Source of the DNA: Desulfobaccales bacterium
GTDB taxonomy: Bacteria > Desulfobacterota > Desulfobaccia > Desulfobaccales > 0-14-0-80-60-11
Assembly (NCBI GenBank): GCA_030694005.1
Contig: JAUXZG010000143.1
Span: 1-36,801, forward strand
Reading direction: 5' to 3'
Length of the DNA: 36,801 nucleotides
Part shown: positions 29,911 through 36,588 of the stretch, piece after piece
Position numbering within the stretch: the stretch's first letter is position 1
Layout of the letters: each line of letters starts with the position of its first letter
The notes under the pieces: model-generated
What the model was told of the DNA's origin: nothing
The model's database searches: none
The model's input: the letters and a program-made list of their open reading frames with translations, nothing else
Made by a program: the position numbers and the translations under genes

Positions 29911-31335
29911 TTACCCTTCTTCAAATTGCCCCATCACCCCCTGAAGAGCCGTCAGCAAGACCTGCCGGTCTTCCGGCAAGATGGTGCGGAGATCCAGCAG
30001 CACCGCCTCCTGTTCCACCCGGGCGATGACCGGCGGGGTGGCCTGGCGCAGGCGGGCCTCCAGTTGCTGGGGGGCCAGAGGCGGCAGGGACAGGGCCAGG
30101 GCATAACCGGGCAGGGGCAAAAGGGGCAAGGCCCCGCCCCCCACCCGGCCCTCGCTCAAGCGAATTTTTACCTGAAGCCGCGGGCCCCAGCGCCTTTTTA
30201 TGACCCGGGCCAGGGCCCGGGCCTGGCGGGCCAATTCCGGCAGCGGCCGGGTGAGCATCCTCAGAGTGGGGAGGGCGGCCAAGGCCTGGGGCTCCTCCAG
30301 GTAGAGGCGCAGGGTGGCCTCCAGCGCGGCCAGGGTCAGCTTGTCCGGGCGCAAGGCCCGGGTGAGGGGGTTTAGCCTCAGGCGCGCCACCACCTCCCGG
30401 CTGCCTAAGGCCAGGCCGGCCTGGGGGCCGCCCAAAAGCTTGTCGCCGCTAAACAGCACCAAATCCGCGCCGGCCTTGAGCGTCTCCTGGACGGTGGGTT
30501 CTTTTTCCAGGCCGTAGCGGCTCAAGTCAATGAGGCAGCCGCTGCCCAGGTCTTCCACCACCAGCAGGCCGTAGCTGCGCCCCAAAGACACTAAGTCCGG
30601 CAGGGCAACCTCATGCGTGAAGCCCAGGATGCGGAAATTGCTGGGATGGACTTTTAAAAGGATGGCGGTCTCCGTGGTGATAGCCTTTTCGTAATCATGG
30701 AGATAGGTTTTATTGGTGGTGCCCACTTCTTTTAAAATGGCGCCGCTCACGGCCATGATCTCCGGCAGGCGAAAAGACCCCCCGATCTCCACTAACTGCC
30801 CCCGGGAAATGAGCACTTCCTTGCCCTGGGCCAGGGTGTTTAAGGCCAGCATCACCGCGGCGGCGTTGTTGTTTACCACCAGGGCGGCTTCGGCGCCGGT
30901 GAGTTCGGTAAGCAAGCCTTCCAAATGGTCCTGCCGGGAACCCCGCTCGCCCCGGGCCAGGTTGTATTCCAGGTTGTTATAATGGGCGGCTACTTCCCTG
31001 ACTTGCTCCAGGGCCGCCGCGGCCAACGGCGAGCGCCCCAGGTTGGTGTGGATGATGACCCCGGTGGCGTTGATCACCCGGCGCAAAGACGGCCGGGCCG
31101 CGGCCGCCAGGGCCTGCTCCAGTTCCCGCCACAGGGCCTCTTCGTTTAGTCGGGGGGGAAGTTCTTCCGCTGGACAGGCGCCAATCTTGTCCCGATGGGC
31201 CGCCAGGACGCGGCGCACTTGGGCCGCGGCCCAAGGGCGGGGCAGGGAGGCCGTCAAGGGGGCTAGGCGAGAATGCCGCAGCAGTTCATCCACCTGGGGT
31301 AGCTGCCGCAGAAGAGTAGCGCACTTCGGGTCCAT
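29911..31335 (-). CDS. selA: L-seryl-tRNA(Sec) selenium transferase
   Basis: A 474-residue PLP enzyme that converts seryl-tRNA(Sec) to selenocysteinyl-tRNA(Sec) with selenophosphate. The start is ATG at 31335 (MDPKCATLLRQLPQVDELL), chosen because AGGAG lies six bases upstream; the longer frame from 31365 lacks one. INATGVIIHTNLGRSPLA, NLEYNLARGERGSRQDHLE and VVNNNAAAVMLAL are family blocks. FSGDKLLGGPQAG holds the PLP lysine (Lys299 from this start). The N-terminal tRNA-binding region (about 1-90) is present. Its presence implies that the organism makes selenoproteins, but selB, selD and tRNA-Sec are not in this window. Confidence 0.95.
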   Translation of the reverse strand: MDPKCATLLRQLPQVDELLRHSRLAPLTASLPRPWAAAQVRRVLAAHRDKIGACPAEELPPRLNEEALWRELEQALAAAARPSLRRVINATGVIIHTNLGRSPLAAAALEQVREVAAHYNNLEYNLARGERGSRQDHLEGLLTELTGAEAALVVNNNAAAVMLALNTLAQGKEVLISRGQLVEIGGSFRLPEIMAVSGAILKEVGTTNKTYLHDYEKAITTETAILLKVHPSNFRILGFTHEVALPDLVSLGRSYGLLVVEDLGSGCLIDLSRYGLEKEPTVQETLKAGADLVLFSGDKLLGGPQAGLALGSREVVARLRLNPLTRALRPDKLTLAALEATLRLYLEEPQALAALPTLRMLTRPLPELARQARALARVIKRRWGPRLQVKIRLSEGRVGGGALPLLPLPGYALALSLPPLAPQQLEARLRQATPPVIARVEQEAVLLDLRTILPEDRQVLLTALQGVMGQFEEG

Positions 31336-31621
31336 AATCCGCTCCTTTGCCAAGGAATATGCCACCCCGGCGCGGGTCTGTCAAATGAAAGAACGCCGGC
31401 AAACCGGTGGGGAGCGGGACTTGTGCCGCCGGCGCGCCGCTTGAAACCGGTGGCGTTTAAAGGGCAAGCCCCTTGATTTCCGCTTAAAATCGCCAAAGGA
31501 CCACTCCTGAAGCGGAACAACCGAGAAAGCAGGGCAAACACCCAGGACCGCCCCGAAAAAAACACCACGATCCAGACAAGGAATACCTGAGACCTAACAC
31601 TAAAGCATAAGATTTCATAAC

Positions 31622-31740
31622 TAATACCAAGTCGCAATCAAAGGGCAACAATTGTAGGGGCGTGATTTATCACGCCCGCCTTGAGGGCGCAATAAATTGC
31701 GCCCCTACGAAAATACCTTATTGATTGCACCTTGGTATAA
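31622..31740. repeat. MITE-like element with TTATACCAAG terminal inverted repeats
   Basis: The left end TAATACCAAGTCGCAATCAA and the reverse complement of the right end TTATACCAAGGTGCAATCAA match at 17 of 20 positions. Inside are two hairpins, GGGCGTGATTTATCACGCCC and GGGCGCAATAAATTGCGCCC, whose outer GTAGGGGC/GCCCCTAC also pair. The 119-bp element has no coding capacity. Confidence 0.7.
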
Positions 31741-31774
31741 GGAGCCTCTGGCAAAATTACCCGGCCTTTAATTA

Positions 31775-31823
31775 GCCGCAGGCTTCAGCCTGCGCCAGCA
31801 CAGGCTGGAAAGCCTGTGCCACC
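31775..31823. repeat. Double hairpin of the AGGCTxxAGCCT / GGCTGGAAGCC type
   Basis: GCCGCAGGCTTCAGCCTGCG is followed by GCACAGGCTGGAAAGCCTGTG. The second unit, with its trailing GCCACC, recurs in variant form at 32508-32531, 32803-32825 and 35976-35999. Confidence 0.6.
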
Positions 31824-31894
31824 GGATATTTTCGGAGCCACTTGATAAAATCTCAGCCTCAAAGAAATTTGGGCAAAAGGCTATAAGGTAACGT

Positions 31895-32158
31895 TATTAA
31901 GCAGCCCCCCTCACCCCAACCCTCTCCCCCGGCCAGCGGGGAGAGGGGGATAATATATGGATTTCCCAGGGTTAACAACGTTTAAGGGTTAAAAACTTTA
32001 GCGAATTAATCATATGGAGAAATTGGCGAAAAGCGTTACCGAATTTATGAACCGCTTCACTCAGTTATTTTCATTACTTCCTCTCCCCCCGGGGGGGGAG
32101 AGGAGTGAGGTGAGGGGGGTTTTGAAATGGCTTGTAGTCATGGTTATAGAACCGTTCA
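31895..32158. other. Gene-free stretch with two opposed G/C hairpins
   Basis: CTCTCCCCCGGCCAGCGGGGAG at about 31921 and CTCTCCCCCCGGGGGGGGGAG at about 32082 are flanked by CCCCCCTCACC and GGTGAGGGGGG. The block is therefore inverted-repeat-like over about 200 bases. I see no gene in it. Confidence 0.35.
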
Positions 32159-32545
32159 CTAGGGCCGGCTTCCCAGGGCGTGGCGGACTTTTTCCCGGAG
32201 AGAGAGAAGGCGGATGGATTCCTGAAGACAACCCAGGGAGATGTGGAGGGAGTGGAAATCTTCGGCCTTGTGGAAGAGGCGGTCCAGGCGGACTTCCAGG
32301 AGGTCCAATCTGTCCAGAAGGGCCGACAGGTGGGACTGGTCGGCCTGGCGCTGCTCGAGGGCCAGTTGGCGGCGGAGATGTTTGGTGTGGCGGCAGAGGG
32401 CCGAAGGGCTGAGGCCATAGTCGGCGGCCAGGGTGCGCAGCGGCACGCCATTGAGGAGGCCGCGGTCGATCTCCGGGCGGGAGGCGTGGTTACAGACGGA
32501 ACAGCGCACCGGCTGGAAGCCTGTGCCACCAGGATTTTTTCCCAT
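32159..32545 (-). CDS. Small Cys/HTH-like protein with repeat-derived N-terminus
   Basis: A 128-residue protein with no assigned family. The start is ATG at 32545, with AGGAG seven bases upstream; the longer frame from 32602 would run through the terminal repeat of a MITE-like element. CSVCNHASRPEID is a two-cysteine knuckle, followed by LLNGVPLRTLAADYGLSPSA and LCRHTKHLRRQL, which looks like a helix-turn-helix with a recognition helix. The rest is a charged coiled coil (LSALLDRLDLLEVRLDRLF). DNA binding is therefore plausible. Residues 5-12, GGTGFQPV, are encoded by a copy of the dispersed GGCTGGAAGCCTGTGCCACC hairpin repeat, so a repeat has become part of the coding sequence. Confidence 0.65.
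   Translation of the reverse strand: MGKNPGGTGFQPVRCSVCNHASRPEIDRGLLNGVPLRTLAADYGLSPSALCRHTKHLRRQLALEQRQADQSHLSALLDRLDLLEVRLDRLFHKAEDFHSLHISLGCLQESIRLLSLREKVRHALGSRP
32508..32531. repeat. Dispersed GGCTGGAAGCCTGTGCCAC repeat inside a coding region
   Basis: CACCGGCTGGAAGCCTGTGC followed by CACC is the same unit as at 31801-31823 and 35976-35999. On the minus strand it encodes Gly-Gly-Thr-Gly-Phe-Gln-Pro-Val near the start of the small Cys/HTH gene. Confidence 0.6.
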
Positions 32546-32558
32546 AGCGGTACTCCTG

Positions 32559-32734
32559 CTAGTGGTCTGTTTCATAATTAGCTGGACATTGATAAAAGCC
32601 ATTTTTCCCCCCTCCCCTGGTGGGAGGGGGTTAGGGGGAGGGGGAATTGCCGCAGTTTTCCACCCCCACCCTAACCCTCCCCCCTCAAGGGGGAGGGAAT
32701 TATAAGGCTACCTAATTATGATACACCCCACTAG
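32559..32734. repeat. MITE-like element with CTAGTG/TCATAATTAG terminal inverted repeats
   Basis: The left end CTAGTGGTCTGTTTCATAAT (then TAG) and the reverse complement of the right end CTAGTGGGGTGTATCATAAT (then TAG) are closely matched. The inside is a mirror pair of G/C blocks (CCTCCCCTGGTGGGAGGGGG and CCTCCCCCCTCAAGGGGGAG). It shares its terminal consensus with the 27068-27267 element and sits immediately upstream of the Cys/HTH gene start. Confidence 0.65.
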
Positions 32735-32802
32735 ATTGCAGAACTTGTGGTTGGGCCGGCAAGAGGCGGGCACGGAGGCCCGCCCCACCAATGCCGGGAA
32801 AG

Positions 32803-32825
32803 CACAGGCGAGACGCCTGTGCCAC
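32803..32825. repeat. GCACAGGCGAGACGCCTGTGC hairpin
   Basis: An 8-bp stem variant of the dispersed GCxxGG hairpin, followed by the shared CAC. It lies next to GGCGGGCACGGAGGCCCGCC (32766-32785), the inverted partner of the unit in the 1525-1667 element. Confidence 0.45.
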
Positions 32826-32880
32826 TAAAGGAGGGTAGCAGGGGAGGGGGCGGGAGGCCAGAACAGGCGGGAAGAATGAC

Positions 32881-32936
32881 GGGGGAAAAGGGGAAAAGGG
32901 GAAAAGGGGAAAAGGGAAAAAGGGAAAGGAAAAAGG
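32881..32936. repeat. GGGGAAAA tandem repeat
   Basis: Seven or so imperfect 8-base units alternate runs of G and A, decaying to GGGAAAAA and GGAAAAA at the right. It is a simple-sequence tract in the gap after the TPR gene. Confidence 0.7.
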
Positions 32937-32987
32937 CTACATGAATTGCTCAGGCAGAGTTTGGGGGCGGGAATAAAGCCGGGGCGG

Positions 32988-34109
32988 TCAGGGGGTACGC
33001 CGCAGTTGCGATTTCAGGTCCATGACTTCCTGGTCGCGGCGGTGATAGCTTATGTCGGTGATGATCTGTCGGGCCGTGGTAAAATGGGAGCGGGCCTCCT
33101 CCGGTTGGCCCTGGGCTATATAGAGACGGGCATATTCTAAATGGGCGTCAGCCTGGCAGAGGGCCATGCCGCCACGTTTGGCACGGGCCATGGCCTCCTG
33201 CAAGTCCCGGTGGGCATGGGGACAGTCTTCCCGGACGCGATAAAGCCCGGCTCGGGCCAGGAGGCCGAGCACAACAAAATCTTCCCTACCAGCCTGGCGC
33301 AAGGCCATTACCGCCTGGTCCAGTTGGATCGTGGCCAGGGTGAAGTCGGGGCTGCCTTCCGTCAGGACCTGCATCAGACAGGCCTGGCCCAGGGAGAGGT
33401 GATCCAGAGCGATAAAAATAAGCCAATGTTCTTTTCTTACTATCTCTATTGTTTCGGCGGTCCGCTCCTGTACCTCCCGGTACTGTCCCAGGCTCAGGAG
33501 TAGCTGGCAATACCAAAAACCACCCAAGGAGTAAAGCAAAGGATATTCAGGCTGGATTTGGCGTTGTATCTTCTCGGCCTGTTGGAAAAATTTCCGCGCT
33601 TTGATCAAGTGCCCTTGGTGGAATAACACCAGGGCAAGGTATGATCGGCAGATTATTTGTTCCAATTCGCAAGCGTTGTGATCAGCAATGTCTATGCCCT
33701 GGCGGGCGTAATTGCGGGCATGGGCCAGCCGGCCAAGAGTCAGGGAGAGGTCGCAGAGATTGCTGGCAGCGAGTGCAGCATTGGGCCACGATTTCTGGGC
33801 AATGTAAGCCTCCAATCCCGCCTGCATGGGCTCCACTGCTTCGGCCAGGCGGCCCATCCCTTGGAGACACATGGCGGCCTGGATCAGGAGGAAAGCCTTA
33901 GAACTTTCCCGGAGTTCGGCCAAGGGCCGCGCCCAGGGCGGGGCGAAAAAGTTGGCCAAGGCTGCCAAGTCTGCCCCAAAAGCCCCCAGATTATGGATAC
34001 TGAATTCTTTACCTTTCCTACAGATACGACGATAGTAAACCTCGTCCAGGGCCTCCTGGTGGCGGCCGGCCTGGCAGCCATGGGCCACCGCGGCGTAGAG
34101 GGGCAGCAT
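32988..34109 (-). CDS. TPR-repeat part of a frameshifted TIR-STAND-TPR protein
   Basis: This frame carries the C-terminal half of the gene that starts at 35805. Its native sequence continues upstream of the ATG at 34109 as ARLQAENPEAWRQAHRRLYE and EYYKTQAPEFPDTLEAMLPL, up to the break at about 34211-34218, so MLPLYAAVAHGCQAG is an internal methionine, not a natural start. The region is a chain of TPR-like helix pairs (MGRLAEAVEPMQAGLEAYIA; LGRLAHARNYARQGIDIADH; QGHLIKARKFFQQAEKI; QGQPEEARSHFTTARQI). In STAND proteins such repeats bind the trigger that releases the switch domain. It has no signal peptide or membrane segment. Confidence 0.8.
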   Translation of the reverse strand: MLPLYAAVAHGCQAGRHQEALDEVYYRRICRKGKEFSIHNLGAFGADLAALANFFAPPWARPLAELRESSKAFLLIQAAMCLQGMGRLAEAVEPMQAGLEAYIAQKSWPNAALAASNLCDLSLTLGRLAHARNYARQGIDIADHNACELEQIICRSYLALVLFHQGHLIKARKFFQQAEKIQRQIQPEYPLLYSLGGFWYCQLLLSLGQYREVQERTAETIEIVRKEHWLIFIALDHLSLGQACLMQVLTEGSPDFTLATIQLDQAVMALRQAGREDFVVLGLLARAGLYRVREDCPHAHRDLQEAMARAKRGGMALCQADAHLEYARLYIAQGQPEEARSHFTTARQIITDISYHRRDQEVMDLKSQLRRTP

Positions 34110-35805
34110 GGCTTCCAGGGTGTCGGGGAACTCCGGGGCCTGGGTTTTGTAGTATTCGTAGAGGCGGCGGTGGGCCTGACGCCAGGCCTCGGGGTTTTCT
34201 GCTTGCAGCCGGGCCCAAATATGCCCGGATGAGGGGGTGGCAGTCCAGGGTGTCAGGGTGGTCGGGGTCCACCGGATCCAGGAGCAGGGCCCGCCGGAGA
34301 TCTGTTAGGGCGTAGTGCCAGTCATCGGCGGAGAGGCCCGGAAATTTCTCGGTGAGGCCGGGGATGGGGGGCGGGGCCTTGATGGCATTGATAGCCTCCC
34401 CGGCGGCGGGGCGGTCGAAGAGGCCCAAAAGGAAAAGTATATCTAAGGCCGGTTTCCCGGCAAACCACCGGGCATAGGTGGCCATCATTCTCTGGGCGTG
34501 ACCGCCGTGTCCCTTTTCCTGCAGGACCTCTATCTCCCTGCGTTTGCGGATATCGCCGTGTTTGGCCACCGTCAGGTAGCTCCCCAACAGGGACAGGGCC
34601 AGGGCATGGCCCCTAAATTCCGACGCCGCCTGCTCCAATTCGCCCGGCAAGCCCAGGACGCCCAGGTCGGCCAGCAGTTGGGCCCCGGCCTCCGGGGAGA
34701 GACGGCCCAGGTCATGGGAAAGAACCGGGCCCACCGGAACCTGGTCACGGTCGGACGGAGTGAAAAGCTCGAGGTCCTGCACCGGCACCCGGGTGGTGAT
34801 GATACATAAGCCCAGGTTGGCGTAAGCCAGGCCGGTGAGCAGGCCGGCCAGTCCATCGTCCCTCAGTTTTCCCCCTGGTTCCCCCGTAACCGGAGGAGAC
34901 TGGAGGGGTTCCAGGCCGTCCAGGACGAGGAGGGTGCGGTGCCTGTTGATGCGTTCGGCCAGGCGGGTGCCCCGGTCCCAAGGCGAGCCTTGGGTGGGGT
35001 CGGGATCGCCGAACCATTCGAGGGCGTGGGCGATGACGGGGTCGGCGGTGGCCTGGGCCGCCTCCCGGCTCCCCTGGCTATAGAAGGAGACGCCGTAGAA
35101 ACGCGCGGCGCCGCGAAACTGTTGGGCTTGCATACTCAGGAGCCATTGCTGCACCAGGGCGGTTTTGCCCACCCCGCCGGGGGCCACCAGGGAGACGATG
35201 TTGATGGAGGGATTCTCCCAGGCGGCATCCAGCAAGGCCAGTTCGGCGTCCCGACCGACGAGACGGCGGTGGATCATGGCAGGGAGCCGGGGCGGGTGGA
35301 TATGGCGCGGCGGCAGGGGGACAAAGGTGGGGGGCGACGGGGGCAGACCGGCGCGGCGGCAAAGGTCGTCAACCTCCCGGGCGATGGCGAGGAGATGGGT
35401 ATCGATCTCGAATGCCGTGCCTCCGGACAAAGGGCGGCCGTCTTTGGGCCGGACCTGGAAACGGGCCAACCAGTCAATATCCTGCCAGGCGCAGGGTGAC
35501 ACAATAACCGAAAAAAGCCTGACCCCTTCGGCAGCACTACGCTTAAGCAGACGGAAAACTTCTTCTTTGAGGATGAAGTCGGAAGTGAGGGAATGCCGGG
35601 AAATCAGCAGCAGGGCGATGCTGGCGGCGTTCAGGGCTGTCTCGATCTCCTGATACCAGTCCTGGCCGGCATTGATCTGGCGGTCGTCCCAGGTTTGCAG
35701 ACGATCCTGGTACTCAAGCACCTTAAGGTGGCTCACCAGGTGGTCTTTCCAGGCCTCGTCCTTATGGCTGTAACTAATAAAGATGAGGGGCTGGCCAGCG
35801 GTCAT
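34018..35805 (-). CDS. TIR-NTPase (STAND) part of a frameshifted TIR-STAND-TPR protein
   Basis: Residues 1-130 are a TIR domain (PLIFISYSHKDEAWKDHL; QTWDDRQINAGQDWYQEIE; ALLLISRHSLTSDFILKEEV, where Glu81 fits the NADase position). A STAND NTPase follows at about 180-530: GRDAELALLD at its entry, Walker A APGGVGKT (208-215), Walker B TLLVLDGLEP (Asp296), the sensor-like LCIITTR and the switch motif DCHPLIRAYLG (521-531). After Gly531 the frame is wrong: the remaining 64 residues (PAASRKPRGLASG onward) are out-of-frame translation, and the native sequence continues in the other frame as the TPR part. Intact, the protein would be about 939 residues, the layout of NLR-like antiphage sensors. ATG 35805 has GGAG about 6 bases upstream. 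Confidence 0.82.
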   Translation of the reverse strand: MTAGQPLIFISYSHKDEAWKDHLVSHLKVLEYQDRLQTWDDRQINAGQDWYQEIETALNAASIALLLISRHSLTSDFILKEEVFRLLKRSAAEGVRLFSVIVSPCAWQDIDWLARFQVRPKDGRPLSGGTAFEIDTHLLAIAREVDDLCRRAGLPPSPPTFVPLPPRHIHPPRLPAMIHRRLVGRDAELALLDAAWENPSINIVSLVAPGGVGKTALVQQWLLSMQAQQFRGAARFYGVSFYSQGSREAAQATADPVIAHALEWFGDPDPTQGSPWDRGTRLAERINRHRTLLVLDGLEPLQSPPVTGEPGGKLRDDGLAGLLTGLAYANLGLCIITTRVPVQDLELFTPSDRDQVPVGPVLSHDLGRLSPEAGAQLLADLGVLGLPGELEQAASEFRGHALALSLLGSYLTVAKHGDIRKRREIEVLQEKGHGGHAQRMMATYARWFAGKPALDILFLLGLFDRPAAGEAINAIKAPPPIPGLTEKFPGLSADDWHYALTDLRRALLLDPVDPDHPDTLDCHPLIRAYLGPAASRKPRGLASGPPPPLRILQNPGPGVPRHPGSHAAPLRRGGPWLPGRPPPGGPGRGLLSSYL

Positions 35806-36152
35806 GCGGGGCTCCGAGACAGGAATGGTTGCCTCTTATGCTTCTCTGGTCCCTAATATTCTATTTATTGCGCCAGGGGGAGGGTAGATGTCAAAAGATA
35901 TTTACAAAAGAACAGACGCATGGGCTATTGAAAATTAAGGAATAGCCGGGGGCGGCTGTTCCACATAATAATGGAACACCGGCTGGAAGCCGGTGCCACT
36001 GGGCACTTGACCGATGGGCCTTTTTTGTTTATATTAATAAATATTTCTCTATGACAAGGTATGCCTCACACCACATCTCGAAAAATCTATGATTTTCCTT
36101 TCCTTATCCTGGCAGCCCGTATTTGCGGCCTGAGATATTTTCTGTAAAACTA
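35806..36152. other. Gap between the TIR gene and the tRNA promoter
   Basis: No gene is seen. ACACCGGCTGGAAGCCGGTG followed by CCAC at 35976-35999 is another dispersed hairpin. The rest is AT-rich from about 36020 on, leading to the tRNA-tuf promoter. Confidence 0.4.
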
Positions 36153-36181
36153 TTGACAAAGAATGTGGGGACTTGTAATCT
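36153..36181 (+). promoter_or_regulatory. Promoter of the tRNA-tuf operon
   Basis: TTGACA (36153-36158), a 17-base spacer and TAATCT (36176-36181) form a strong sigma70-type promoter about 45 bases before the first tRNA. TATAAA just after it is too far from the -35 box. Confidence 0.7.
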
Positions 36182-36233
36182 TATAAAGTTTAGACTTGGG
36201 CAGTTCTGGCCTTAAGGCGTGGGGGGTTGAGAG

Positions 36234-36308
36234 GCTGGCGTAGCTCAATGGTAGAGCGGCTGATTTGTAATCAGCAGGTTGCGGGTTCGAGTCCCATCGC
36301 CAGCTCCA
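36234..36308 (+). tRNA. tRNA-Thr (anticodon TGT)
   Basis: A full cloverleaf: acceptor GCTGGCG pairs with CGCCAGC, the D arm is AGCTCAATGGTAGAGC, and the anticodon stem GCTGA/TCAGC surrounds loop TTTGTAA. The T arm is GCGGGTTCGAGTCCCATCGC. A discriminator T and encoded CCA follow. Confidence 0.95.
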
Positions 36309-36331
36309 GGGAGGATCATATTTTTCAGTCT

Positions 36332-36416
36332 GGAGAGGTTCCCGAGTGGCCAAAGGGGACGGGCTGTAAACCCGTTGGCGCAGCCTTCGGAGGTTCGAAT
36401 CCTCCCCTCTCCACCA
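36332..36416 (+). tRNA. tRNA-Tyr (anticodon GTA)
   Basis: Acceptor GGAGAGG pairs with CCTCTCC. The anticodon stem CGGGC/CCCGT-type arm surrounds the loop TGTAAA, with GTA as anticodon. The long variable arm (GGCGCAGCCTTCGG) marks a class II tRNA, and the T arm is GAGGTTCGAATCCTC. Encoded ACCA ends the gene. Confidence 0.93.
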
Positions 36417-36429
36417 TTTCCCAAAGACG

Positions 36430-36505
36430 GCGGGAATAGCTCAATGGCCAGAGCGTCAGCCTTCCAAGCTGAGGGTTGCGGGTTCGAGTCCCGTTTCCCG
36501 CTCCA
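36430..36505 (+). tRNA. tRNA-Gly (anticodon TCC)
   Basis: Acceptor GCGGGAA pairs with TTCCCGC. The anticodon stem TCAGC/GCTGA surrounds loop CTTCCAA, and the T arm is GCGGGTTCGAGTCCCGT. Encoded TCCA ends the gene. Confidence 0.95.
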
Positions 36506-36511
36506 CTTAGG

Positions 36512-36588
<77 letters not shown>

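Follow-up and report, generated by a model that had tools for sequence, protein, structure and literature searches.

The analysed stretch of DNA (hereafter the window) comprises 36,801 nucleotides and represents an entire contig of a genome available as a draft of 260 contigs; the contig end lies inside a translation-factor gene, which we take to be tuf. On the minus strand, from position 35805 to 32988, it displayed one recognisable protein composed of a TIR domain, a STAND NTPase and a MalT-like TPR array, split over two reading frames. The first frame corresponded to an ORF of 595 aa (34018-35805, minus strand) and the second to an ORF of 373 aa (32988-34109, minus strand), whose first ATG was found at 34109. 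The TIR-STAND part itself covered 531 codons of the first frame (34213-35805), with an ATG start at 35805. Its TIR domain (residues 8-110, positions 35476-35784) was recognised through Pfam TIR_2 (5e-14), invariant columns and Foldseek, and the invariant E81/E82, within a region corresponding to the catalytic Glu, is the candidate for this residue according to the alignment. The central STAND module, of NB-ARC/NACHT-like type, extended over residues ~181-530 (34216-35265) and was matched by Pfam AAA_16 (7e-8), weakly by NACHT and NB-ARC, as well as by Foldseek. It contained a Walker A motif APGGVGKT (35161-35184; G210, G211, G213 and K214 invariant), a Walker B motif LLVLDGLE (34909-34932; D296, G297 and E299 invariant), a TTR motif and, at its end, the HPLIR motif (34225-34239; H523, P524 and R527 invariant), all of them located at family-invariant positions. 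The C-terminal TPR array (32988-34214, minus strand), detected with Pfam TPR_12 (4e-13) and TPR_MalT (9e-13), occupied the second frame. A first-pass annotation of this DNA had read the same domains and motifs in two frames, and ORFs, Pfam and motif positions agreed with it. The gene occurred as a single copy in the genome. PADLOC flagged the TIR part alone, as ThsB-like, and the NCBIfam search yielded no family above cut-off.

At the structural level, a single-sequence search of the first half against solved structures gave no match. When the first 531 residues were modelled with AlphaFold2, the mean pLDDT was 66 and the pTM 0.46, the TIR part being mostly between 75 and 88. Among the best PDB matches of this TIR-STAND model, Foldseek reported plant RPP1, NRC NB-ARC domains, Apaf-1 and the STAND-TPR protein 6mfv and, for the N-terminus, the TIR domains of AbTir, SARM1 and SPARTA (TM-scores, on target, of 0.71 for AbTir and 0.68 for SARM1). 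These matches of a predicted structure support domain identity only, overall superpositions being poor.

The conserved left flank of the gene is formed by selA (29911-31365, minus strand; Pfam SelA 1e-151 and synteny) and the right one by a cluster of tRNA-Thr, Tyr, Gly and Thr genes (36234-36588, plus strand; ARAGORN), which were 83-93% identical in relatives. There, lptG, selA and the tRNA-Thr/Tyr/Gly/Thr cluster neighbour each other, and in six relatives (L056, L058, L059, L060, L063 and L065) only 230-410 bp separated selA from the first tRNA gene. The corresponding interval of the window (31365-36234) reached 4.9 kb. Two further relatives displayed unrelated content at this place, namely small ORFs, antitoxin-like and other, over 2.6 kb (L057), and a DEAD-box helicase as well as a large unassigned ORF, as judged by eye, over 5.9 kb (L064). 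Since the interval was short in six relatives and filled with unrelated genes in two, the receptor gene sits in a variable accessory interval, as the first-pass annotation had proposed. None of the 21 same-family genomes carried it, and we regard it as a horizontally acquired accessory gene. No integrase adjoined it, and no ThsA partner was found beside the TIR protein, the neighbours being selA, a small HTH-like ORF and the tRNA genes, beyond which the contig ends. The N-terminal end of this small ORF (32159-32602) was read from a dispersed repeat. The zone had also been termed repeat-rich, which holds for its surroundings, with dispersed G+C-rich palindromes and a tandem array of GGGGAAAA at 32882-32936, but not for the frame break, where no array was present. 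A dispersed palindromic repeat (CACCGGCTGGAAGCCGGTGCCAC-like) flanked the gene on both sides (32507-32529, 32803-32825 and 35977-35999), one copy forming a terminator-like hairpin.

Eleven homologues were gathered, eight of them from a scan of 84,980 species genomes and three by searching 395 genomes from the phylum with a profile. The eight public-genome relatives displayed 41-53% identity and originated from candidate division LCP-89 (two copies), an uncultured archaeon, a Bacteroidetes MAG, Candidatus Anammoxibacter (three copies) and Candidatus Aquidulcis. Identities ranged from 40 to 47% for the TPR part and did not exceed about 54% among the homologues compared; no genome of the same genus was encountered among the relatives found. 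Two scans of viral contigs revealed no relatives. In plasmid records, the matches covered roughly a quarter of the window protein, namely its TIR, and two weak NB-ARC matches concerned the STAND-TPR part of homologue L003. The STAND-TPR core also occurred with other N-termini, which lacked any Pfam match in L009 (5425-8271) and consisted of DUF4365 in L031 (1021-3864). In a relative of the same order (L002), a TIR domain was located at the C-terminus of a GTPase protein (Roc-COR-like by eye), which is another TIR-switch fusion. The proteins of L007 and L005 contained in-frame inserts (SEAKNL...TLRSAQG; TPLHPSSPLHPSTPLRM) that resembled dispersed repeats and kept the frame.

The STAND-TPR junction was continuous in all eleven homologues (e.g. 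HPLIREHFGEKLKSDNAAAWKEAHRRLYEY). Those bearing a TIR domain encode a single continuous TIR-STAND-TPR polypeptide, whereas in the window copy the frame breaks off at ~34213. A codon scan based on log-odds, for which 15 confident genes of the same contig served as training set, placed the change of frame at 34213, in agreement with the earlier view that the first frame is left after its last glycine codon (34213-34215). Downstream of this point, the out-of-frame tail of the TIR-STAND frame (34018-34212, minus strand) scored -0.68 per codon, i.e. as non-coding, compared with +0.28 for the TIR-STAND part. The stop was located 196 nt past the switch, and no start was present near the switch. The TPR frame remained open upstream to ~34300, so that both open frames overlapped by about 285 nt. 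With regard to the size of the lesion, the HPLIR-to-RLYE spacing was 73 nt in the window and 75 nt in the five homologues for which it was computed (L003-L007); L009, L010 and L031 were of equal length at the peptide level, and L008 displayed a different motif. The first-pass annotation had left open whether the net +1 shift came from one base gained or two bases lost. The spacing is better explained by a two-base loss than by a one-base gain, and in its simplest form the event would be a net 2-nt deletion somewhere between about 34228 and 34206, as deduced from the sequence comparison.

The break region (34209-34228) lies inside a perfect 6-bp G+C hairpin with arms CCGGGC/GCCCGG and a loop of 8 nt. 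Only three hairpins of this kind (6 bp, all G+C) occur in the gene; the one at the break was spotted post hoc and was not counted toward any mechanism. No homopolymer longer than 3 nt occurred at the site, the longest ones of the gene (6 nt) being located elsewhere, and no simple repeat, tandem array or invertible element was found there. These observations bear on the earlier suggestion of phase variation, i.e. a gene switched ON and OFF by slippage. The small length change and the otherwise intact halves would suit such a switch. Yet it would need a simple repeat or long homopolymer of the kind that the site lacks, and the HPLIR-RLYE stretch of the homologues was equally devoid of repeat-like features at the protein level, which makes this mechanism very improbable.

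A programmed ribosomal frameshift, by which both frames would be fused under regulation, could account for the family-invariant residues kept in both halves and for the long overlap of the open frames. However, none of the 11 homologues displayed overlapping frames, the codons at the break (UUG GGC CCG) did not, by our own reading, correspond to any slippery site known for +1 or -1 shifts, and neither a stop nor an evident stimulatory element directly followed the site. We therefore give this possibility very little credit. The arrangement might also reflect two functional genes, encoding TIR-STAND and TPR proteins that act in trans, and the ATG at 34107-34109 in the TPR frame is what could be expected in that case. 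This codon corresponded, however, to an internal Met of the fused homologues in the alignment and does not appear as a natural start; with initiation there, the conserved region after HPLIR would lack its first ~35 residues, and the tail of the first frame is non-coding by codon usage. The first-pass annotation had considered that homologues might keep the two parts as separate genes with a natural start at 34109, which the continuity observed in 11 out of 11 homologues contradicts, and separate genes are, in our opinion, very improbable.

Residue conservation gave an indication of the age of the break. The window copy kept 131 of the 143 family-invariant residues in its first half and 56 of 60 in its second half (92-93%). 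In a leave-one-out comparison, intact homologues kept 88-98% of invariant residues in the first half, a range that omits the two homologues without TIR, and 81-95% in the second half. Since an old dead gene would show more loss, retention within the range of intact relatives indicates that the lesion is young, or an error. A damaged copy was also observed elsewhere: in the homologue L032 from the phylum, located on the reverse strand at a contig edge of a draft genome, the TPR part was interrupted by two TGA codons in frame. It is apparently an independently broken copy, and these codons suggest that loss of such genes recurs.

The error just mentioned would be one of assembly or consensus, the gene of the organism being intact and two bases having dropped out of the contig at a short hairpin rich in G+C. 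The draft state of the genome, the position of the break in one of the three hairpins and the undecayed conserved residues are all compatible with this explanation. Against it, homopolymers at the site did not exceed 3 nt, and across 261 kb of this assembly the frame was not clearly broken inside any other gene. The latter base rate was obtained from a Viterbi frame scan of 20 of the 260 contigs (about 261 kb, some contigs being covered only to 20 kb), in which the TIR-STAND/TPR break was the one clear in-gene frame switch, indicating that the assembly is not generally indel-prone. The scan further recorded many ordinary operon junctions, where the upstream stop was at most tens of bases away and a start was close by. 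Two other switches were less clean: one (L017, ~1878) displayed a short first stretch and a second frame that was open far upstream with starts, and the other (L013, ~10124) is explained by an overlapping start. Altogether, we consider an error possible but clearly the less probable explanation.

Our preferred reading, which we hold to be probable, is that this TIR-STAND-TPR ('TIR-NLR') gene was acquired horizontally, had two bases deleted where its STAND and TPR parts meet, and no longer works as a one-piece receptor. Most likely, the window thus carries a recently inactivated allele of an already known kind of NLR-like defence gene. An argument against this reading is that a single consensus error would look identical and also predicts undecayed residues. 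By analogy with the relatives and the tested TIR-NLR, the intact form would bind an invader signal through its C-terminal TPRs, upon which the STAND NTPase would exchange its nucleotide and oligomerise. The TIR domains brought together in this way would consume or convert NAD+ and thereby kill or arrest the infected cell. The broken copy could yield a TIR-STAND fragment ending in 64 aberrant residues, which would be sensor-less, and the TPR part has no evident start of its own. The fragments might nevertheless keep some activity, which would speak against complete inactivation. One could even imagine that the TIR-STAND fragment was selected as a sensor-less decoy or hair-trigger, the TPR part being made separately and receptor assembly being controlled in trans, but we see this as a highly speculative proposal with a very small chance of being correct.

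The break itself is unsurprising; breakage is expected once a costly suicide-type defence loses favour and is ordinary for defence genes. The analysis adds a modular NLR-like receptor family, in which the same STAND-TPR core is associated with a TIR domain, DUF4365 or another N-terminus and which is thinly spread over distant phyla. One of its alleles, in the variable selA-tRNA interval, seems to have been broken only a short time ago.

Several known systems resemble this gene in part. In fold, the TIR-STAND model was best matched by the TIR-NLR resistosome RPP1 of plants and by Apaf-1 of animals, but these possess an LRR or WD40 sensor instead of TPRs, and the likeness is to be read with a sequence identity of about 14% and a low-confidence model (pTM 0.46). 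Likewise, the TIR domain with its Glu region is shared with Thoeris ThsB, AbTir and SARM1, whose TIR domains occur in separate proteins or in other fusions, and the window gene lacks a paired ThsA. TIR-AP-ATPase-TPR proteins, reportedly the Leipe 2004 class, are composed of similar kinds of domains. Prokaryotic conflict systems include such proteins, as well as TIR-AP-ATPases encoded together with FxSxx-type systems (Kaur et al. 2020, PMC7159879; Kaur et al. 2021, PMC8195603); in contrast, the window gene stands alone, without adjoining vWA, MoxR or peptide-processing genes. The closest parallel in architecture is the TIR-STAND-TPR protein ('TIR-NLR') of P4-like satellites, which blocks phages in E. 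coli and for which TPR sensing, NTP-driven oligomerisation and NAD+ degradation were proposed (Rousset et al. 2022, PMC9122126). The earlier description of TIR-STAND proteins as antiphage NADase sensors is justified for this class (PMC9122126), and the window protein may be presumed to share the NADase activity. Effector swapping on an NTPase-sensor core was also described for STAND proteins of P4 hotspots (PMC9122126). Although the window gene has a broken frame, belongs to a host of another phylum and is not surrounded by satellite genes, it can be likened by architecture alone to the E. coli P4 TIR-NLR, with which it has in common the TIR/STAND/TPR order, a swapped N-terminal effector in relatives and a location in a variable hotspot.
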